This document shows, piece by piece, positions 13,272 through 23,191 of a DNA stretch of 64,000 bases; within the stretch, counting starts at the first letter, position 1; the number at the start of each line of letters is the position of its first letter. The notes beneath the pieces were generated by a model that saw only the letters and a list, made by a program, of their open reading frames with translations, was not told the origin of the DNA and did no database searches. Source of the DNA: Fibrobacter sp. (GTDB taxonomy: Bacteria > Fibrobacterota > Fibrobacteria > Fibrobacterales > Fibrobacteraceae); assembly GCA_024398875.1 (NCBI GenBank), contig JAKSIJ010000002.1, positions 124,001 through 188,000 on the forward strand. The letters are read 5' to 3'. The position numbers and the translations under genes are program-made.

Positions 13272-14612
13272 TTACACTACAGCTTTGGTCTGCCAGCGGC
13301 CGCTACGCCACCGCCAAAGGTTCGCGATGGAGCGGTAGAATTCGTCGCTTGCCATGCCGAGCCAAAGCCCCACAAGTCCCAGGTCCAGGACGAAGGCGAG
13401 AATGAGGGCGGTGGCGAGGCCGAGGGTCCACATCATGCCGCTTCCCACAAAGGCTGGAAATTTGGAATCGCCCGCGGCACGGAGGGAAGTGGTGATGATG
13501 AAGTTCACCGCTTTAAAGGGCTGTACTGCCACATCGCACCAGAGGCAGAGACACCCGAGGTGGATGACTTCCGGATTGTTGGTGAAGAAGCGGATGAGAA
13601 ATTCTCCATTGAGGGCTACGAGGATGGAGAGAATGAGGCCGCTGGTGCAGCCGATGGCAATGGTTTGATACGCCCGCTTGCTCGCTTTTTTGAAATCGTG
13701 GGCGCCTACCAGGTGACCGATGAGAATCTGGTTCCCACTTCCAAATCCAACACCTAGAATGACGGAGAGGGCTGCAAAATTTCCGGCAAAAACGCGGGCG
13801 GTCATGGCCGTTGTGCCTACGTAAACCACCATGGCGGTAATGAACACCTGGAAAAGTTGGAAACTAATGGGCTCGGCTGCGGCAGGGAGCCCGATGCGGA
13901 GCCAGTCGGGAAGGATGATGCGGGAGCGCTTCAAATCGCGACGGTGAGACTTATGCTGGGCTTTAAAACGGAGCGCAAGCCAAAGAATGATGGAGGAAAT
14001 CAGCCAAGAAAGCGCGGTGGCGAGACCGACGCCGTAAACACCCATCTTCGGGAGACCGAAAAGCCCTTCCAGAAAGATGTAGTTCATTACGGCGTTGCTA
14101 GCGATGGTGAGCACGTTCCCGATAAGGTTCCAGATGGTGATGCCATGGGTGGCGATAAGTGCGGTCAGGGTGGATTGAAGCGCCCTGAAGGCAAATCCGA
14201 AGGCTACCACGCAGAGAAATTGCCGGGCGTATTCCGCGGGAGTTCCTTCCAGCCCCATCCAGCGGGGAATGTAGCCCGCAATGGGGAAGATGATGAGGGT
14301 CAAAGCCACACCCAGCAGGAAACTTCCAAAAATCACTAAAGTCTGTGTGGAGCGAGCATGGGCCTTCTGGTTTGCCCCGATGTATTGGGAGGTGATGCTT
14401 GCTCCCGACTGGCTGAAGGCGTGGATTGCTGTAAAAAGTGCCGCCAGGATGGGCATCATGGCTCCCACGCCAGCCGCCGCAGTTTCGGACGTGCGGGAGA
14501 GAAACCAGCTGTCCATCATGGGCTGAATCATTCCCACGGCAAAGGTGAGAATCAGTGGCCAGGAAAGCCCTAGAAGGGAACGATCCTTGACTTCTTTTTG
14601 CACATGTTTCAT
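13272..14612 (-). CDS. MATE family efflux transporter
   Basis: 446 aa and about 12 predicted membrane spans, in two halves as usual for MATE. It is an ion-driven exporter of small molecules. ATG 14612 (MKHVQKEVKDRSLLGLSWPL) is chosen because the longer frame adds a basic, non-membrane extension that reaches into the divergent ahb gene. The mature start then lines up with the family. It is 17 bases upstream of dnaG on the same strand. Substrate unknown. Confidence 0.85.
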   Translation of the reverse strand: MKHVQKEVKDRSLLGLSWPLILTFAVGMIQPMMDSWFLSRTSETAAAGVGAMMPILAALFTAIHAFSQSGASITSQYIGANQKAHARSTQTLVIFGSFLLGVALTLIIFPIAGYIPRWMGLEGTPAEYARQFLCVVAFGFAFRALQSTLTALIATHGITIWNLIGNVLTIASNAVMNYIFLEGLFGLPKMGVYGVGLATALSWLISSIILWLALRFKAQHKSHRRDLKRSRIILPDWLRIGLPAAAEPISFQLFQVFITAMVVYVGTTAMTARVFAGNFAALSVILGVGFGSGNQILIGHLVGAHDFKKASKRAYQTIAIGCTSGLILSILVALNGEFLIRFFTNNPEVIHLGCLCLWCDVAVQPFKAVNFIITTSLRAAGDSKFPAFVGSGMMWTLGLATALILAFVLDLGLVGLWLGMASDEFYRSIANLWRWRSGRWQTKAVV

Positions 14613-14735
14613 GCGGCTTTTTCTCTCGGTGCCAATTTTAGCAAATCTTTGAGGTGGTGGATAGGGTGTTTTTACAAGTGTTGTTTGCAAGCGTATACAA
14701 ATGAGGGTTGATTTTGCGCTTTTGAAATAAAGTGC

Positions 14736-14743
14736 TATTTTTC
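14736..14743 (+). promoter_or_regulatory. Putative -7 box of ahbAB
   Basis: TATTTTTC, a TAnnTTT-type box, ends 5 bases before ATG 14749. There is no ribosome-binding site between them, so the mRNA may be leaderless. Confidence 0.4.
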
Positions 14744-14748
14744 CTTTC

Positions 14749-15768
14749 ATGACATCCCCTCTGGAGCAAAATCTGCTGAACATTATTCAGGATGAATTCC
14801 CGCTGGAAACCCGCCCGTATCAGGTGCTGGCGGAACAGCTCCAGCAGGCAAATCCCGTAGATTTTTGTGCCATAGGGGAGACTGAGGTTTTTCAGGCAGT
14901 GGAACGCCTTCGGGAGTCTGGAGTTGTTCGTCGCATTGGGGCGGTGTACGACTCTCGAAAGTTGGGCTTCACCTCCAGACTTTGCTGCGGAAAAGTTTCG
15001 GAAACGGCATTGGATGCCTTTGCTGCCGCGGTTTTAGACGAGCCTTCTATCACTCACAATTACGTGCGGAATCATGCCTTCAATGTGTGGTTTACGGTAA
15101 TCGGAAAATCTGCCGAGGATATTGCCGCCGTAGCCCAGAAGTTGCAACAGCGGACGGCGCTTACGGATGTCCATATTCTGGATTCCAAGCGGATGTTTAA
15201 AATCAATACGGTGATGGGAAAAATTGCTGCTCGTGAACAAAAATTGGATTTCACGATGTCCGAAGCGATCCCTGCCTCGCTGCTCTCGCAACCGGCATTG
15301 CGAAAATGTCGGGCGCTGTTCGCTGGTGACTTTCCCCATTCGTTGACTCCCTTTGCAACAATCGCTTCCCAGATTTCGTCCGAAACTTCTGTGGAAGTCT
15401 CGGAATCCCAAGTGATTGCTCAAATCCGTTGCGACTTGAATTCTAAAATCGCCCGCCGTTTTGGAGCCGTACTCCGCCATCAAAAAGCGGGCTTTGCAGA
15501 AAATGCCATGGTCGTTTTTAAAGTAGACGAAAATGCGGTGGAACAGGCGGGACAACTCCTTTCGGCGGAAACGCAGGTGTCCCATTGCTATGAGCGGACT
15601 AGTTTTGATGGCTTTCCATACAATCTCTACGCCATGATTCATGAAACTGATGCAGAACAACTCCATTCTACTATTATGAAAATTGTAGATAAATTAAATA
15701 ATCCTGCGTATTGCGTTCTTCGTTCCGTAAAGGAATTGAAGAAAACCAGTTTTAACTATTTTGTATAG
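14749..15768 (+). CDS. Fused siroheme decarboxylase AhbA-AhbB (NirDL-type)
   Basis: 339 aa with two Lrp/AsnC-like halves. Half 1 (about 1-160) has RRIGAVYDSRKLGF (61-74) and THNYVRNHAFNVWFTV (102-117). Half 2 (about 180-339) has RRFGAVLRHQKAGFAENAM (237-253) and VSHCYERTSFDGFPYNLYAM (277-296). These are the AhbA and AhbB signatures, including the paired histidines near residues 103 and 279. The enzyme removes the C12 and C18 acetate carboxyls of siroheme, the first step of the siroheme route to heme (or d1 heme). In most anaerobes AhbA and AhbB are separate; fused forms are known as NirDL. No other ahb or nir gene is in the window. Lrp-type transcription regulator is the less likely alternative. 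Confidence 0.82.
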   Translation: MTSPLEQNLLNIIQDEFPLETRPYQVLAEQLQQANPVDFCAIGETEVFQAVERLRESGVVRRIGAVYDSRKLGFTSRLCCGKVSETALDAFAAAVLDEPSITHNYVRNHAFNVWFTVIGKSAEDIAAVAQKLQQRTALTDVHILDSKRMFKINTVMGKIAAREQKLDFTMSEAIPASLLSQPALRKCRALFAGDFPHSLTPFATIASQISSETSVEVSESQVIAQIRCDLNSKIARRFGAVLRHQKAGFAENAMVVFKVDENAVEQAGQLLSAETQVSHCYERTSFDGFPYNLYAMIHETDAEQLHSTIMKIVDKLNNPAYCVLRSVKELKKTSFNYFV

Positions 15769-15778
15769 GGGAGTTGAG

Positions 15779-16279
15779 ATGGATTTTGCCTCTTTACAGA
15801 ATTTTATTTTTTCAGAACGGCCTTATGAATCGGAAATTCATGGGCTGGAACACTGGCGTCAGGTGGAGTTTAATGGTCTACTTCTCGCTCCGGAAACGGG
15901 GGCGGATATTACTGTCGTTCGGCTGTTTTCGCTGTTTCATGATTCCAAGCGTTTTGAAGATGGTCATGATGCAGAACATGGTCCCCGCGGTGCAGAATTT
16001 GCAAAATGGTGCCTAGAAAATAAATTGCTTGAATTGGATAATGAACAGTTTGAAAAACTATATCACGCCTGTGCAAATCACACTCGGGAAAGTTCCAGTG
16101 GGGATGCAACCATTGATACTTGCTATGACGCTGACCGATTGGATTTAGGCCGAGTAGCAATTCCTCCGGACCCTCGTAAAATGGCTACAGAGGCGGGTAA
16201 GAAAATTGCCCGCAGGCTAAGTGCTGCGGGCATTTCCGTCTTCCACCATCGGGAGTGGATTCGCAATTTCCGATTTTAA
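15779..16279 (+). CDS. HD-domain hydrolase
   Basis: 166 aa. The metal-binding pattern of HD hydrolases is present: H25, H54-D55 (SLFHDSKR) and an Asp near 117-119 (CYDADRLDLG). Such enzymes are usually nucleotide phosphohydrolases or phosphodiesterases. AGGGGAG (15767-15773) is a good ribosome site for ATG 15779. It follows ahbAB after 10 bases, so it is probably cotranscribed. The 3' end overlaps the convergent ridA-like gene by 4 bases. Substrate unknown. Confidence 0.72.
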   Translation: MDFASLQNFIFSERPYESEIHGLEHWRQVEFNGLLLAPETGADITVVRLFSLFHDSKRFEDGHDAEHGPRGAEFAKWCLENKLLELDNEQFEKLYHACANHTRESSSGDATIDTCYDADRLDLGRVAIPPDPRKMATEAGKKIARRLSAAGISVFHHREWIRNFRF

Positions 16280-16782
16280 ATCGTTTCAATCCAGCTATAG
16301 CGCCCCGTGAAACTTGCCGGTTCAGGAATGACTCTGAATGTGCAGCTTATTTCTACGGCGGCGTTTTTGGGCAAAGCAGAAACGCCAACGGCAGTGCGGG
16401 CGTGCTTTCCGTTCTCGCCAAGAATCTGCACGGCAAGCTCGCTGGCTCCGTTCAGCACAGATGGCTGTTCGTGAAAATCGGGAGCGGATTGCACAAATCC
16501 CTGCATCTGAATCATCATCAGAGTCTCGCCAGATTCTACAAGGGAAAGCGCTGCGGCTAGGTTATTCATGAAGCAGATGCGAGCCGCTTCTGCAGCCTTT
16601 TCCGCGGAGATTTGAGTGGGAACTGCACCGCAGAATTGAGAAAAATCTCCCTTGACGGAGGGCAACTGGCCAGAAACCGTAATGGTGTTGCCGGAGCGCA
16701 CAGCAGGAATATATGCCGCAAGTGGTGCGGGGCATTCAGGAAGGGTGATTCCCAATTCTTCAAGACGATTCTTAATGCTCAT
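16276..16782 (-). CDS. RidA/YjgF family protein
   Basis: 168 aa. The C-terminal part has the RidA core (GKHARTAVGVSALPKNAAVEI), and the conserved Arg that binds the carboxylate of 2-aminoacrylate is present. The N-terminal KNRLEELGITLPECPAPLAA is typical of the longer subgroup. RidA hydrolyses reactive enamine/imine intermediates. The start is ATG 16782, after AGAGGACA; a longer frame has no support. It is 32 bases downstream of the phosphatase gene on the same strand and may be the last gene of the partner-switch operon. That would fit an imine or dehydro-amino-acid side product, but this is speculative. Confidence 0.8.
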   Translation of the reverse strand: MSIKNRLEELGITLPECPAPLAAYIPAVRSGNTITVSGQLPSVKGDFSQFCGAVPTQISAEKAAEAARICFMNNLAAALSLVESGETLMMIQMQGFVQSAPDFHEQPSVLNGASELAVQILGENGKHARTAVGVSALPKNAAVEISCTFRVIPEPASFTGRYSWIETI

Positions 16783-16814
16783 GTTTGTCCTCTCTTGGGC
16801 AAAAAATAGAAAAA

Positions 16815-18281
16815 TTAGGATGCTTTGGGGGCATTGTAGCGGACGAGCATCATGGTAATATCGTCTGCCTGAGGGCATTTGTCGGCAAATTTGTCGATGT
16901 TGGCTTTCAAACCATGCAAAAATCCATGGAGATCATTTTGGGAATTTGCGTCTGCAAACTGTTGCAGACGATTTTCGCCATAGAATTCGTAAGCGGTATT
17001 GGTTGCTTCTGTAACGCCATCAGTGTAGAGGAACAACTGGTCCCCTGTATTTAACGAAATGCTTTCTTGAGTGTATTTCAGGGAACTCATGGCGGCTAGC
17101 GGAAGGCGCTTTTTTGTGGACACGAGGTATTCGAATTTCCCACCCTTTCTGCATAGAAGTGGCGGATTGTGACCTGCGTTAACATAGTCGAGTTGACCGG
17201 TTGTGGTATCCAGAATTCCAAACCAGGCGGTAACGAACATGTCATCTTCTTCGCTTTCACAGAGTTTCTGGTTTACATTGTTGAATACATCTACCGGAGA
17301 AAGTCCCAATTGAGCGTGGTCCTTAATGAGTGTCTTTGCAATGACCATAAAGAGTGCGGCCGGAACGCCCTTTCCAGAAACGTCCGCCATGACTACGCCC
17401 AAATGGGTTTCATCGATGAAGAAAAAGTCGTAGAAGTCTCCACCTACCTCTTTAGCGGGGGTCATCGTGGCAAACAACGAAACATTTTCGTTAGCGGGGA
17501 AATTGTGAGGGAGCATGTTGATTTGAATGGATGTCCCCATCTTGAGTTCGGATTCCACGGCAGCTTTCTTACTGGAAATGTCAGCTTGCGTATGCACCAT
17601 CTCTTGCATGCGTTTTGTCATGATGAAACTTGCAAGAATGATTACCAGCAAGAAGAAAATGTTTGTGTCAAGGCAGTAGAAGAAATTGTCCCGGTTATAC
17701 AGATACAAGAACTGAGAGAAGTCTTGTTCGCTGAGGGCGCTAATGGCGGAGTCGATTGCGGTATAGGGGGTTGCATCTACACTGGGGTCAATGTTCAGCA
17801 CTGTGGGCGACGTGAAGTTAATCATGTTCAAATCCCAAATTCCGTAGATAGATGAGAGCAGTTTCGCAATAACATAGATGGCAAGAGTAATGACGGAAAT
17901 ATTCCGAGTCACTCGCTTGGAATAGTAACGGCAACTTAAAACAATGGGAATGGCGAACATCAACTCCACGCCGTAGGAATAGAGCGAGGTGTAGGCTCCG
18001 ATAGCAATCAATAAAGAAATAATGGCGATGTATTTTGTGTAGGATTTGTCGGCCTTGTTTTTTATAAAGAAGGAAAGCAGAACAAATATCAGGGTCTGGC
18101 CACCGAAGAAATAGAGGCCTTCATCAAAAGTCATAGCGAAGACTTCTGTGATGGTGCAGATGGCGATAATCAGATAGATGGCGGCAAGAATTAGAAAGGA
18201 TTTGGAGATGAGTCTGTTTGCTCGGTTCTCGTTTTCCTTAAATAGCAGTTTTGTTGATTCGCTAAAGTAATGATCAGCCAT
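16815..18281 (-). CDS. Membrane-bound SpoIIE/RsbU-type PP2C phosphatase
   Basis: 488 aa. About six membrane spans (about 28-145 and 205-222) form the N-terminal half. A short coiled segment follows, then a SpoIIE-type PP2C domain (about 255-485). The metal-binding residues are present: EVGGDFYDFF (D282), VMADVSGKGVP (D300), FLYTDGVTEA and QADDITMML. Such phosphatases remove phosphate from a STAS anti-anti-sigma protein. A loop between spans (about 150-200) may sense a signal outside the membrane. It lies 9 bases after the STAS gene, which should be its substrate. Confidence 0.9.
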   Translation of the reverse strand: MADHYFSESTKLLFKENENRANRLISKSFLILAAIYLIIAICTITEVFAMTFDEGLYFFGGQTLIFVLLSFFIKNKADKSYTKYIAIISLLIAIGAYTSLYSYGVELMFAIPIVLSCRYYSKRVTRNISVITLAIYVIAKLLSSIYGIWDLNMINFTSPTVLNIDPSVDATPYTAIDSAISALSEQDFSQFLYLYNRDNFFYCLDTNIFFLLVIILASFIMTKRMQEMVHTQADISSKKAAVESELKMGTSIQINMLPHNFPANENVSLFATMTPAKEVGGDFYDFFFIDETHLGVVMADVSGKGVPAALFMVIAKTLIKDHAQLGLSPVDVFNNVNQKLCESEEDDMFVTAWFGILDTTTGQLDYVNAGHNPPLLCRKGGKFEYLVSTKKRLPLAAMSSLKYTQESISLNTGDQLFLYTDGVTEATNTAYEFYGENRLQQFADANSQNDLHGFLHGLKANIDKFADKCPQADDITMMLVRYNAPKAS

Positions 18282-18290
18282 TTTTCCCCT

Positions 18291-18596
18291 TTATTGATTC
18301 TGAATATTCAGTATGCCGTCAAATCCAACAATACGGATTGTTTCCATAATCATGTTGGATACATTCAGAATGGTGAATTGGATGTTCTTTTCACTAAGCA
18401 TTTTCTGGGTGTGGAGCAGCGCTCGCAAACCCGCCGAAGAAATGTGCTTCAATTCTTTCAGGTCTAGTTCTAGAACTTTTATGGAATCAAGATGTTTTTC
18501 CACTTCTTCTGTAAAACGAGGAGCGGAATTGGCATCTAGAATATCATCTATTGCCAGATTGAGGTTTGAACCCGATTTGTTTATTTCAATTTTCAT
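18291..18596 (-). CDS. STAS-domain protein (anti-anti-sigma factor type)
   Basis: 101 aa, a single STAS domain of SpoIIAA/RsbV type. The phosphorylation site is clear in LKHISSAGLRALL (about residues 50-62). When unphosphorylated it should bind a GHKL anti-sigma-type ATPase domain; phosphorylation releases it. Here the only GHKL domain nearby is the C-terminus of the MATE fusion encoded 10 bases upstream, and the only phosphatase is encoded 9 bases downstream. No sigma factor gene is in the window. Confidence 0.9.
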   Translation of the reverse strand: MKIEINKSGSNLNLAIDDILDANSAPRFTEEVEKHLDSIKVLELDLKELKHISSAGLRALLHTQKMLSEKNIQFTILNVSNMIMETIRIVGFDGILNIQNQ

Positions 18597-18606
18597 GAAG
18601 CCTACT

Positions 18607-20316
18607 TTACAGTGGTAATATAAAAAAATTCCGATTGTAGCTTGTGGTTGTGAGATTCATTTTGTCTTCTTGGTGCTGCATCATGTTCTTGACAAAGTAG
18701 CCTCGGAAGGAATCCATGGCGCTGTTTTCGCTGGTAATGTCGAAAATGACGCCGTTGTCCCGAATGATTAGCTTTACATCTTTGTCTATAAAAACGGAAA
18801 TTTCGGAGAGAATTTCCTGGTTTCCATTTTTTTCCATGATGAGCATGCAGAGTTCTTCAATGAGCAGTGAAAGTTGGATACGGGTTTTTAGAGATGCGTT
18901 ACTCTGTTCCAAAATTTCTTCAATCTTTCTCTGGACGGTGATGATGTTCTCTGGATTTAGGATAATGTCGAAGGAGTGGATGATTGCTTCGTTATTTTCT
19001 AAAAGAAGAGGGAATTGTTTTTTGGGGAAAACCAGTTTTGTTGATATGAATCCTACGATGATGGTGAAAACGGGAGCTATGGCAAGGCCGATCCATAAGC
19101 CATTAAAACCCCAGATGTCGCGGCATACCATCGCACAGGTGATGGGGGCGGCTAGGTCTTTGATGAAGCAGAGGAACATGGTGTGCTTGAACAACTGTTT
19201 TACAAGATAGTACGAGGAGAAGAGGAAAAGGAGCGATGTGCAGAAGAGGGTGGGACATATAATGCGGAGTGCCGTGGTGGAACATTGTTGCAGTTCGCTA
19301 GATGTGATGTCAAAGGCGTGAGGAATGAGACCTGCAAAAGCAAACAGAATCATGGTTGCGATAAGGCCTTCTGCAATGGCCGTCTTGGTGGAGATTCCCA
19401 TCGCCTTTTTTATGCCAGGGTTATTCTTTTCGCCGAGGTAGACATTGACAAGCGGCGTCATGGCTTGCCCGATGCCATCGAAGATGATGGTAATCTGAAT
19501 GACATTGATGACGAGGGTGAGAACGGGAAGGTAGAAATCTCCGAACTCCTGAATGACGAACTTATCTAGAATGAATGTCTGGATGCCGATGTAGAGATAG
19601 AGGCCTGCGTCAATGATGCTGAACTTGACGAGCTCTGCGACACTTTTTAGAGAAAAGAAAAGTTCTGGCCGGAGAGAGTTTGATTTCTTGAAGAAGTGAA
19701 TCCCCAGGGCAAGGGTGGCTCCTGCTGTTCCGATAAAAGCCCCAAGGCCAACGCCTGCGATTCCCATTTTGCAACATGCAATAATGGATATACCGATGTT
19801 TCCGATGAGAAGAATGATGTTGGAAAGGTAGGTGCAGAATTCATCGCCATCGGTGAGGACCAGGTCAGAAAGAAGGAAATAGACGGGATAAAGAGCGATG
19901 ACATACTGGTAGTAGCGGAAGCATTCTAATGTGTACTGCGTGATTTCTGGGCTGGTTCCCAAAAAGCTTAAGTAGGTATTGATGGATAAGTTGGAAAGAA
20001 TGTAGGCAAAGACGCTTAGGAAGAGGGAAATAATTAAGCCCTCCCCAAAAATCTGGTTGGCTTCCTGCTTTTTTGCTTGACCTATTTTGAAGGAGTAGAT
20101 GTAGCAGGCACCAATGCTTACGATGTCGCTTAGCCCTATGAAAAAAGTGAGGAGGGGCGTGAAGACATTCATTGCAGAAAGAGCTTTTTCGCCAAGAATG
20201 TTTCCCACAATGACGGCATTGGCTATCATTGTGAGGATAGGAATGACCATTCCCACGGTGGAGGCTCCCAGCATGGTCTTGAATTTTTCTTCGCAGAATA
20301 TCTTGTTTACGGCCAT
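18607..20316 (-). CDS. MATE transporter fused to a C-terminal GHKL (RsbW-like) ATPase domain
   Basis: 569 aa. Residues 1-430 form a MATE exporter with about 12 spans and two-fold repeat. Residues about 440-569 form a cytoplasmic domain that reads as HATPase_c/RsbW: QLSLLIEELCMLIMEKNG (N-box region, 481-498), LIIRDNGVIFDI (G1-like DNG at 520-522) and RGYFVKNMMQ with a final Tyr-Asn strand. The N-box Asn that coordinates Mg is replaced (IEELCMLIM), so kinase activity may be weak or lost. Gene order with STAS and PP2C genes points to partner switching acting directly on a transporter. The 5' end is 52 bases from the divergent NRPS-like gene. Confidence 0.85.
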   Translation of the reverse strand: MAVNKIFCEEKFKTMLGASTVGMVIPILTMIANAVIVGNILGEKALSAMNVFTPLLTFFIGLSDIVSIGACYIYSFKIGQAKKQEANQIFGEGLIISLFLSVFAYILSNLSINTYLSFLGTSPEITQYTLECFRYYQYVIALYPVYFLLSDLVLTDGDEFCTYLSNIILLIGNIGISIIACCKMGIAGVGLGAFIGTAGATLALGIHFFKKSNSLRPELFFSLKSVAELVKFSIIDAGLYLYIGIQTFILDKFVIQEFGDFYLPVLTLVINVIQITIIFDGIGQAMTPLVNVYLGEKNNPGIKKAMGISTKTAIAEGLIATMILFAFAGLIPHAFDITSSELQQCSTTALRIICPTLFCTSLLFLFSSYYLVKQLFKHTMFLCFIKDLAAPITCAMVCRDIWGFNGLWIGLAIAPVFTIIVGFISTKLVFPKKQFPLLLENNEAIIHSFDIILNPENIITVQRKIEEILEQSNASLKTRIQLSLLIEELCMLIMEKNGNQEILSEISVFIDKDVKLIIRDNGVIFDITSENSAMDSFRGYFVKNMMQHQEDKMNLTTTSYNRNFFILPL

Positions 20317-20368
20317 TGCAAAATACTTTTCTTAGCGGTATGCCCAAAATTATTATTTTTAGAGGGTA
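20317..20368. promoter_or_regulatory. Divergent promoter region between MATE-ATPase and NRPS-like genes
   Basis: Only 52 bases separate the two start codons. On the plus strand TATTTTTA (20353-20360) is a weak -7 box, followed by AGAGGG as ribosome site. On the minus strand TATTTTG (20319-20325) lies 2 bases before ATG. Both promoters must overlap, so shared control is likely. Confidence 0.45.
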
Positions 20369-23191
20369 ATGTTTTCGGTTCTTGAAAATATATTGCGAAA
20401 AGCGTCTGTAAATCCTGATCAGGTGGCGATTTATGGCGATCCAGACAGTTTGACCTATGGTCAGCTGGAAGCGTTGTCTGGACGTGTTTACGGTTTTTTG
20501 AAAGCTCATCGCGTGGGACGTGAAGATGTGGTCTTTGTTAGGTTGCATCGACGTATTGAGTTCTATGCCTGCATGGTGGGCATTTGGCGGGCAGGGGCCG
20601 TCCTTGCCGGTTTGGAAGACGAGGAACCTCAAGAAAGAGAATCATTTATCCGCAGGAATTGTTCTCCAAAGATTGTGATTCATGAGGGAAATCTAAAGGA
20701 AGTTTTTGATAGTGATTATCGCGAAGGTTACGAACCGCGAGACTTGCATGACGGGGCTTTCGTCGTCTACACATCTGGATCTACGGGCAACCCTAAGGGG
20801 GCCCTTCACGAGTACGGAACTTTGGAATACATGGCCCAGAGTAATGTGAAGAACGAAAAGGGTGAGGCTATCATCAAAACTTTGGATAATGTGGCTATTA
20901 CCTGCCCCATGAACTATCTGCCTTCCTATTTTCTTTTTGTTTGGAGTATGAGCGTTGGCGCGACTTGCTCGCTTGTTCCGTATGAGAAGACAAAGAATTT
21001 GAAGGAAATGCAGCTTTATGTGGATGCAAAAAAGATTTCCGTTCTTTTCATTACACCTACCTATGCTGCCCTGTTTGAAAAATTCCCCCCATCCATCCGC
21101 TGCGTCATTTTAGCCGCGGAAATTGTGAAGAATATTTGGTTCAATGGCGTGGAACTTTTGAATATGTATGGCTCCACCGAATTTGGAACCATGGTGACGA
21201 CCTTTGCCATGAAAGACTCGATGGAAAATACTCCCATCGGGAAGGACTTTGGACCCGTAAAGGTGGAAACGCTGGAAGATGGAGAGGTACGAGTTTATAA
21301 TCCATACGCTCGCGGATATATCAATAATGAAGCAGAAAATGCCATCGTTTTTAAGGAAGGTTGGATTTATCCAGGGGATATAGCCCAAAGAACATTGGAT
21401 GGTGATTTAACCATTGTTGGTCGAAAAAATGAGATGGTGAAAATTGACGGAAACCGCGTTGAACCTGGAGAAATTGAGTCGGCTGTCAAAAAAGTTTTAG
21501 GGGTTTCTTGGGCGTGTGTTCGGGTGGTCAAGAATGAGCGAAATGCCGTTTCCATCTGTGTTTATTATGTGGATGACATCAGCTTTTCTCAAGAGTCTGT
21601 GCAAAAAAAGATAAGCCTTCTCTTGCCTTACTACATGGTTCCAACCCATTACATCCACATTGATTCCATTCCCAAAAATGCTAATGGCAAGTTGAATAAA
21701 TTGGCGTTGCCATTGCCCTCGCTGGAGGAGGAAAATGCGTCCTTCGTTCCTCCGAAAACAGAAGAAGAAAGGACTCTGTGCAAGACGATGGGCGAAGTCT
21801 TGAATGTAGAGAATGTGGGACTTACCACGGATTTCTTCCAATTGGGAGGAACCTCTGTTTCCGCCATGAGAGTGGTTGCTCAGTGTGATTTAGAGGGCCT
21901 TGGCATCCATCACATATATCAAGGGCATACTCCGGAAAAAATCTTAAAGCTGCTACATCATGCTCTGTTGGAGGAAACTCCACGCCATCATCAAACGAGT
22001 TATCCGTTACTTCCGACGCAGCGCTATATTTGGAATTTTCAGATGCGTAAACCGCAATCAACGATGTACAACATCTACAGTTTTTTTGAGTTGCGGAAAG
22101 AAGTTGATTTGAAACGTCTTGCTGTGGCCATCAAAAGCGCAGTTCGGAAACATCGGGCGTTGCTCACGACTTTTGAAGAAAATGCAAAGGGCCAAATAGT
22201 GCAGCGAATTTCTGAGGATGAAGTCTCGGTAGCGATAGAATCCTGCGATTTGAACGCATTTAGTGAAATTAGGAACCAACTCGTCCAACCCTTTGATTTA
22301 CTGAACGATCCCTTGTATAGGATTCGCATTTTTAAGGTTGACGAGCAGGCTTTCCTGTTTATGGATGTCCATCACATTGTGTTTGACGGGTCGTCGCTCC
22401 AGATTCTCTATAGGGATATTGAGGCCCTGTATCGGGGTGAGGAATGTTTTGATGAAGATTACGAGTCTGTGCTTTTGAAAAAGTTGGAACAGGTAAATGA
22501 TGGCTCGTTTAGGGATTCTCTTGCGTATTTTGAGCGTGTAATTGGTAATAAAACTTGGAATATGTGCCCCAGGGTGGATTCGGATTCTGCAGAACTGGAC
22601 GAAGGCGAATTGATGTCTCCGGCTGAGCTAGACGATGCTGCGCTAGATCGATGGTTAAAGACTAATGGTGTTAGCCGGAATGAATTTTTTACAGCGGTGA
22701 CGCTGAAGGCCATTGCTCTATATAATGGAACGGAGAATGTACTTATCAATTGGGTGTATAAAAATCGTGATACCGTGCAAGAGGATTGCACTGTTGGGCC
22801 GTTTTATGCTTGCTTGCCTGTTGTTCTAGAAGGAAAAATCGAACCGCATTCTTTGGTAAAAAGTGTGGCAGCGCAGATTGAAAAGGGCATCGCTCATGCA
22901 AATTGCCAGTATGTTTTGTACAAGAATGATTATCAGCCTTGCGATTGCGTTTGTTTGCTGTATCAGGGGACGATTCGCAGCAGTCACGCGCTAGAGAGTT
23001 TGGTTTGTGGACGAGTGGATGCTCGAAAAAATGCTGCAAAAAACCAGAATATTTTGGATGTAGAAGTTCTTGAAACTGCGAATGGATGTATAGTATATTT
23101 GGATTATGACAGCAGCAAGTATGAGAAATCCAGTATGGAACGATTCCTTGCGATATGGAAGAAAACCGCTAAGGAATTCCTAGCGGCTTAG
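20369..23191 (+). CDS. One-module NRPS-like enzyme (adenylation, carrier, condensation)
   Basis: 940 aa, order A-PCP-C. Adenylation domain (about 1-450): A3 YTSGSTGNPKG (134-144), A5 NMYGSTEFG (265-273), A7 YPGD (334-337), A8 GRKNEMVKIDGNRVEPGEIE (351-370) and A10 PKNANGKLNK with Lys 441. Carrier domain: LGGTSVSAM with phosphopantetheine Ser 496. Condensation domain (about 545-940): VHHIVFDGSS (667-676), the active HHxxxDG motif. The A4 region (YLPSYFLFVWSMSVGA) lacks the Asp that binds the alpha-amino group of amino-acid substrates, so the acid loaded may not be an ordinary alpha-amino acid. No thioesterase or second module is present; the C domain must join the loaded acid to a free acceptor. 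No phosphopantetheinyl transferase is in the window. Confidence 0.88.
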   Translation: MFSVLENILRKASVNPDQVAIYGDPDSLTYGQLEALSGRVYGFLKAHRVGREDVVFVRLHRRIEFYACMVGIWRAGAVLAGLEDEEPQERESFIRRNCSPKIVIHEGNLKEVFDSDYREGYEPRDLHDGAFVVYTSGSTGNPKGALHEYGTLEYMAQSNVKNEKGEAIIKTLDNVAITCPMNYLPSYFLFVWSMSVGATCSLVPYEKTKNLKEMQLYVDAKKISVLFITPTYAALFEKFPPSIRCVILAAEIVKNIWFNGVELLNMYGSTEFGTMVTTFAMKDSMENTPIGKDFGPVKVETLEDGEVRVYNPYARGYINNEAENAIVFKEGWIYPGDIAQRTLDGDLTIVGRKNEMVKIDGNRVEPGEIESAVKKVLGVSWACVRVVKNERNAVSICVYYVDDISFSQESVQKKISLLLPYYMVPTHYIHIDSIPKNANGKLNKLALPLPSLEEENASFVPPKTEEERTLCKTMGEVLNVENVGLTTDFFQLGGTSVSAMRVVAQCDLEGLGIHHIYQGHTPEKILKLLHHALLEETPRHHQTSYPLLPTQRYIWNFQMRKPQSTMYNIYSFFELRKEVDLKRLAVAIKSAVRKHRALLTTFEENAKGQIVQRISEDEVSVAIESCDLNAFSEIRNQLVQPFDLLNDPLYRIRIFKVDEQAFLFMDVHHIVFDGSSLQILYRDIEALYRGEECFDEDYESVLLKKLEQVNDGSFRDSLAYFERVIGNKTWNMCPRVDSDSAELDEGELMSPAELDDAALDRWLKTNGVSRNEFFTAVTLKAIALYNGTENVLINWVYKNRDTVQEDCTVGPFYACLPVVLEGKIEPHSLVKSVAAQIEKGIAHANCQYVLYKNDYQPCDCVCLLYQGTIRSSHALESLVCGRVDARKNAAKNQNILDVEVLETANGCIVYLDYDSSKYEKSSMERFLAIWKKTAKEFLAA

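Follow-up and report, generated by a model that had tools for sequence, protein, structure and literature searches.

Partner switching is known mainly for the control of sigma factors, and MATE exporters linked to nonribosomal peptide synthetases (NRPSs) are known as well, such as ClbM for colibactin and SolL for solanimycin, the SolL family being also represented in NCBIfam. In the SiaABCD system of Pseudomonas aeruginosa, a phosphatase, a GHKL-fold kinase, and the switch protein SiaC have as their output the diguanylate cyclase SiaD, an enzyme (PMC8457831, PMC7647112). The ABC transporter MlaFEDB depends on the STAS-only protein MlaB, which binds it, and a phospho-mimetic at the conserved site of MlaB weakens this binding (PMC7367683). 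Here, we describe a locus in a 64,000-nucleotide stretch of DNA from Fibrobacter sp. (contig JAKSIJ010000002.1, positions 124,001 to 188,000), hereafter the window, in which a MATE transporter with a predicted GHKL-fold domain at its C terminus is encoded together with a STAS protein, a SpoIIE/PPM (PP2C) phosphatase, and a RidA-family protein, divergently from a single-module NRPS-like enzyme with adenylation (A), peptidyl carrier protein (PCP), and condensation (C) domains (A-PCP-C).

The reading that we judge best, and to which we give an even chance, is that the locus belongs to a module spread by horizontal transfer, where the product of the A-PCP-C enzyme would be exported by a MATE pump set by a sigma-free partner switch; no sigma factor is linked, and we side with an earlier reading made from the sequence alone (the sequence-only reading), which had suggested a circuit acting on the exporter without changing transcription. 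The more specific proposal, which falls somewhat short of an even chance, is that the pump is gated by a pseudokinase, a dead RsbW-like domain serving as the docking site of the STAS protein, with export opened or closed after translation, and that the module moved among at least three phyla of the herbivore gut. The A-PCP-C enzyme would make a small acylated or aminoacylated molecule. The membrane PPM phosphatase would sense a signal and dephosphorylate the STAS protein, which would be phosphorylated by an intact RsbW-like GHKL kinase; many loci encode such a kinase within the module, and here it would come from another part of the genome. Once unphosphorylated, the STAS protein would dock on the pseudokinase domain of the MATE pump, where an anti-sigma kinase would stand, and its docking would either open or close the pump, through which the A-PCP-C product would leave the cell. 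The module is probably an undescribed way of switching a metabolite pump directly and not via gene expression; in the open-access literature on MATE proteins with STAS, SpoIIE, GHKL, or NRPS, we found no description of this gene set.

Recurrence of the gene set and its spread across phyla

Homologues of the window MATE protein were collected from 101 genomes of the family and then by alignment against GTDB contigs, giving about 100 full-length proteins, and gene maps were drawn with iterated profiles of the window proteins and of one GHKL. Co-occurrence was counted in 48 non-redundant loci with at least 3.5 kb of flank on both sides, taking as partners the genes within 5 kb. A SpoIIE/PP2C phosphatase accompanies the MATE fusion in 31 of these loci and STAS in 28, followed by A-PCP-C (19) and a separate GHKL kinase (15). 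With four SpoIIE domains in the 2.78 Mb of the whole genome, the number expected no more than 5 kb from a given gene is about 0.014, and the association of the phosphatase with the MATE fusion is therefore beyond chance. According to this count, the genes belong together, as the sequence-only reading had claimed, and the set recurs across phyla; the condition by which that reading would have been refuted, a lack of co-occurrence in other genomes, does not hold.

The gene order varies between loci while the set co-occurs. The window has the order MATE-STAS-PP2C-RidA with a divergent A-PCP-C gene, L043-L045 have PP2C-(A-PCP-C)-MATE, and L046-L048 have (A-PCP-C)-MATE-PP2C with STAS upstream. The order (A-PCP-C)-STAS-MATE-PP2C is found in L049, L050, L052, L053, L071, and L072, and in Spirochaetia L122 and L124 a GHKL gene is added to it, the complete set sharing one strand and fitting into about 7 kb. 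Two loci of Lachnospiraceae (L093 and L096) have MATE-PP2C-STAS-(A-PCP-C), and five of Clostridia (L091, L095, L106, L109, and L110) have MATE-PP2C-STAS-GHKL. That the set is kept while its order changes argues for a joint function. In complete modules such as L122, L124, and L106, among others, phosphatase, kinase, switch protein, and MATE, the putative output, are all encoded together, the window being without the kinase gene.

MATE fusions with the C-terminal domain were identified in Fibrobacter, Spirochaetota, Bacillota, Synergistota, and the Lentisphaerota/Kiritimatiellota group, the hosts including Treponema and other Spirochaetia, Butyrivibrio, Pseudobutyrivibrio and other Lachnospiraceae, Synergistaceae, Lentisphaerae, and Kiritimatiellae. 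Many of the host genomes come from herbivore rumen, other forestomach, or faeces, a pattern to be read knowing that herbivore-gut genomes are heavily sampled and that the scan patterns were drawn from Fibrobacter proteins. The closest copies are L069/L074, from Fibrobacter sp. of horse faeces, whose MATE protein is 98% identical to that of the window; among viral contigs, no relative was found. In a maximum-likelihood tree of 66 MATE fusions, the loci with A-PCP-C are clustered (7 label changes versus 20.3 in shuffles), and one supported clade (99/96) brings together 11 A-PCP-C loci from Fibrobacter, Spirochaetota, and Lachnospiraceae, a mixture for which movement from phylum to phylum is the best explanation. 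The window MATE protein groups with L036 and L042 (100/100).

Using the sigma factors of the window's own genome as queries against all loci, we detected sigma factors only at L034/L084 (4.2 kb away) and L127 (2.9 kb), in keeping with the sequence-only reading, which had noticed none nearby; these three distant cases aside, the loci contain no sigma factor, and in this the STAS protein differs from RsbV/SpoIIAA, which act on an anti-sigma and a sigma factor of their operon. This bears on the possibility that the exporter is a sensor, its transport state altering the affinity of the GHKL-fold domain for STAS, and that the freed or trapped STAS protein acts via a separate kinase on a distant sigma factor or some other output. 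Although sigma control ordinarily relies on STAS proteins and intact GHKL kinases, and although intact kinases and sigma factors do occur elsewhere in the same genome, we deem this unlikely, since no sigma factor is linked save in those three loci and since the commonest partner is the PP2C phosphatase, already an input device.

The RidA gene, which the sequence-only reading had placed in the locus, is linked to it in the window, in the near-identical L069/L074, and in the L036-L042 clade; RidA was therefore rejected as a general part of the module, being confined to the window's clade. In L036-L042, a 553-amino-acid (aa) protein of the sodium:neurotransmitter symporter family is inserted between phosphatase and RidA, the clade having no local STAS gene, and the phosphatase reading frame of L042 is split. 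A family of EamA-like membrane proteins was also seen in the MATE fusion loci L106 (8900-9889), L087, L088, L092, L109, L110, L112, and L139, in several of them directly upstream of the fusion.

The fused domain of the exporter and the switch parts

The exporter belongs to the MATE family by its PF01554 domain and 12 transmembrane (TM) segments, and the best PDB matches of its model (predicted local distance difference test [pLDDT], 87) are MATE structures. The Asp of TM1 that couples transport in NorM-type pumps (D36 of NorM), although not universal among MATE pumps, is present in 59 of the 66 members of the MATE-fusion family; in the window and its sister clade it is Asn33, which suggests that transport coupling in the pump of this clade may differ from the NorM type.

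For the C-terminal domain, Pfam makes no GHKL call in the window protein, and a search of solved structures with the profile of this domain alone returned no match by sequence, so that the assignment comes from profile-profile and fold comparison. Profile-profile alignment (hhalign) related the domain to the separate true GHKL kinases (95.8%, E of 7.6e-9). Its predicted structure (pLDDT, 79.6) has UsfX, SpoIIAB, and RsbW as best PDB matches, with a Foldseek probability of 1.00, and superposes on 6m37 with a Z of 11.7 and a root mean square deviation of 2.2 over 94 aligned residues. By this predicted fold, the exporter's C-terminal domain is a GHKL domain closest to RsbW/SpoIIAB, and several of the matches of this type are structures solved with a STAS partner.

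The ATP site is degenerate. In our alignment, none of the 66 MATE C-terminal domains has the N-box Asn (Mg-ATP), which all 25 members of the GHKL set possess, and the glycines of the G2 box GGLG are replaced in most of the 66; the Asn is retained in two more distant MATE fusions, L065 and L066. Loss of the N-box Asn normally abolishes Mg-ATP use in GHKL proteins, which, together with the loss of the G2 glycines, indicates that the fused domain is probably not a kinase but a docking pseudokinase. The transporter would thus probably bear a target-like GHKL copy, the kinase being another protein. The sequence-only reading had fused to the transporter the GHKL part of the circuit, which the fold upholds, but as the circuit's kinase, which the lost Asn and the separate kinases do not. 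That the fused domain is itself the active STAS kinase, transporter and kinase being one protein, is for these reasons rather improbable, even if the fold is GHKL, the EE of the N-box helix and the DxG of G1 are largely conserved, and the window module encodes no separate kinase: the Asn is missing in all 66 domains, and complete modules contain separate intact GHKL kinases. The latter have intact N-box, G1, and GGLG motifs and match RsbW in NCBIfam, below its cut-off, as well as RsbW and SpoIIAB in PDB.

The other switch parts are intact. The window STAS protein matches TIGR00377 (anti-sigma factor antagonist) with 58.2 bits, above the cut-off of 53.45, and the Ser of its SSAG motif is conserved in 50 of 50 sequences, as expected of an RsbV/SpoIIAA domain. 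The phosphatase matches PF07228 (SpoIIE) with 169 bits, and the metal-binding Asp residues of the PPM family are kept in 59 of 59 sequences, with one gap at one position.

Several findings weigh against the proposed docking switch. Nine of the 48 non-redundant loci, about a fifth, have no partner at all, and a paralog in the same genome (L034) has A-PCP-C and MATE without switch genes. The evolutionary distances of all partners track the MATE protein, but STAS tracks the membrane part as well as the C-terminal domain; co-variation of STAS specific to the latter was sought and not found (partial correlation of about -0.09 given the membrane part), and co-variation hence gives no pointer to physical docking. 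In 64 of the 66 MATE domains, G1 retains the Asp that contacts adenine, so that some nucleotide binding is possible. By GHKL profile and genome search, the window module has no kinase gene of its own, the nearest true GHKLs, both candidates for a kinase in trans, lying on contigs C7 and C8, and no STAS gene was seen within about 9 kb either in L036-L042, which are its closest relatives, or in L043-L045. The window module may therefore rely on parts encoded in trans, and it is here that the model, as applied to the window, is weakest. Such parts do exist: STAS proteins occur elsewhere in five of five tested genomes of the L036-L045 type, as do GHKL genes, and at least one true GHKL is present in each of the 10 other Fibrobacter-family genomes tested. 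In the window's own genome, the intact GHKL of contig C7 adjoins a further MATE fusion and STAS, and that of contig C8 lies in a cluster of STAS, PP2C-GHKL, PP2C, and STAS.

Besides STAS and the intact separate GHKL kinase, the C7 locus (L035, 8167-10586) encodes the third MATE fusion in this genome; it has no A-PCP-C and is a possible source of a kinase acting in trans. The C8 locus (L174, 5063-8993), where STAS, a PP2C-GHKL fusion, a second PP2C, and a second STAS are consecutive, is an independent partner-switching cluster.

The A-PCP-C enzyme and the genes of the window

The A-PCP-C enzyme of the window has the three domains of an NRPS module with their catalytic residues, namely, the catalytic Lys of A, the Ser of PCP, and the HHxxxDG motif of C; the Lys, the Ser, and, within the C-domain motif, the second His and the Asp are unchanged in 44 of 44 homologues. 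The residue equivalent to Asp235 of A domains, which holds the alpha-amino group of the substrate, is Leu in the window and Asp in only three of the 44 homologues, which makes an ordinary alpha-amino acid an unlikely substrate. Since the enzyme has no thioesterase, its C domain probably passes the acyl group to an amine. In 19 loci of Fibrobacter, Treponema, and Spirochaetia, we found a divergent fold-type I pyridoxal phosphate (PLP) enzyme of about 377 aa, typically encoded directly upstream of the A-PCP-C gene, on which Pfam is silent in the members tested and whose best NCBIfam match, GntC, is weak. Often, a carboxynorspermidine decarboxylase relative (344 bits, cut-off of 409) is encoded ahead of it, joined in some loci by an aminotransferase and a flavodoxin-like protein. 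Judging from these neighbours, the product may join an acid to an amine made by them.

Whether the switch belongs with the pump can be asked from the loci lacking A-PCP-C. If A-PCP-C and MATE alone were linked, for making and exporting the product, the STAS and phosphatase genes would be a separate cassette travelling along by chance, as the pairs of A-PCP-C and MATE without nearby switch genes in L034, L085, L090, L099, and L108 could suggest, NRPS genes beside a plain MATE being common (contig C77 of the same genome, for example). However, PP2C and STAS accompany the MATE fusion in many loci without A-PCP-C, which argues that it is the fused MATE that the switch accompanies, and the fold of its additional domain is one bound by STAS proteins; we hold out only a slim chance for the separate cassette. 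Very unlikely is a pump that protects the cell or imports, with a substrate other than the A-PCP-C product: A-PCP-C is missing from 29 of the 48 non-redundant loci, and Bacillota loci carry a second plain MATE or EamA-like transporter directly upstream of the MATE fusion, but no biosynthetic neighbour other than A-PCP-C recurs from phylum to phylum, its gene is often immediately next to that of the MATE, and MATE pumps often serve NRPS products.

The five genes described by the sequence-only reading are all present within the coordinates it gave (Table 1), and its gaps are likewise confirmed, with 32, 9, and 10 bases separating RidA, phosphatase, STAS, and MATE in this order and 52 bases between the divergent starts. 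The Pfam/NCBIfam domains of the window proteins are AMP-binding, PP-binding, and Condensation in the A-PCP-C enzyme, MatE, STAS, SpoIIE, and, in the RidA protein, Ribonuc_L-PSP (Pfam).

Table 1. Features of the window locus and the PLP enzyme of related loci
Feature	Positions	Strand	Basis
A-PCP-C single-module NRPS-like enzyme, 940 aa	20369-23191	+	Open reading frame list, Pfam/NCBIfam domains, catalytic-residue alignment
Divergent intergenic region between exporter operon and A-PCP-C gene, 52 bases	20317-20368		Sequence
MATE transporter (12 TM) with C-terminal GHKL-fold domain (predicted), 569 aa	18607-20316	-	Pfam, structure model
RsbW/SpoIIAB-fold domain of the exporter, predicted pseudokinase; N-box Asn and G2 glycines lost	18607-18999	-	Profile-profile, fold, alignment
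STAS-only protein with conserved phosphorylatable Ser (SSAG), 101 aa	18291-18596	-	Pfam/NCBIfam, alignment
SpoIIE/PPM phosphatase with N-terminal hydrophobic membrane region, catalytic Asp residues intact, 488 aa	16815-18281	-	Pfam, alignment
RidA-family protein, linkage limited to the window's clade, 168 aa	16276-16782	-	Pfam, gene maps
PLP enzyme, examples	L046 4416-5549; L108 5921-7060; plus 17 other loci		

About 1.5 kb from the RidA gene, the window also encodes a plain MATE transporter without a fused domain (13272-14783), adjoining a DNA primase-like gene, and a Fib_succ_major protein (Pfam/NCBIfam) is a neighbour of the locus, which, together with the relatives found, puts the genome in Fibrobacter or close to it. 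Elsewhere in the same genome, L034 (contig C1, 5353-9889) is a second pair of A-PCP-C and MATE fusion without STAS and phosphatase, with a sigma-70 family gene 4.2 kb away on the same strand, and L176 (contig C77) has a pair of large NRPS genes, one of 2278 aa that is cut by the stretch and one of 2412 aa, with a plain MATE gene adjoining each. In L089 (3676-9831) of Butyrivibrio sp. MC2021, a 2051-aa NRPS-like protein is encoded beside the MATE fusion, which is followed by a plain MATE. The complete genome of Treponema ruminis also has A-PCP-C and MATE, along with a neighbour of 396 aa that putatively contains STAS.

Relation to described systems

If the proposed switch is true, partner switching would gain, in a secondary transporter, an output of a new kind, and the fused domain would offer a ready example of a kinase domain turned docking domain. 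The module would also mark small biosynthetic clusters with unusual A domains in bacteria of the rumen and herbivore gut, and the switch would provide a means of turning on their export.

The locus resembles the systems of ClbM and SolL since a MATE pump is encoded beside an NRPS; exporters of this type have, to our knowledge, no GHKL-fold extension and no partner-switch genes. It shares with MlaFEDB the pairing of a STAS-only protein with a transporter, which here is proposed from the genes, but MlaB binds the ATPase of an ABC transporter and is not known to have a phosphatase or kinase partner. With the RsbU-RsbV-RsbW and SpoIIE-SpoIIAA-SpoIIAB systems of Bacillus, it has in common a PPM phosphatase, a STAS protein with a conserved Ser, a GHKL-fold partner, and, in complete modules, a separate RsbW-like kinase; it departs from those systems in having no linked sigma factor and in the fusion of a degenerate GHKL-fold domain with a transporter. 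SiaABCD, whose SiaB is among the fold matches of the MATE C-terminal domain (Z of 8.8), is similar in that its partner switch has a protein other than a sigma factor as its output, as is proposed here, but that protein is SiaD, and the output proposed for this locus is a MATE exporter that would contain its own docking domain.

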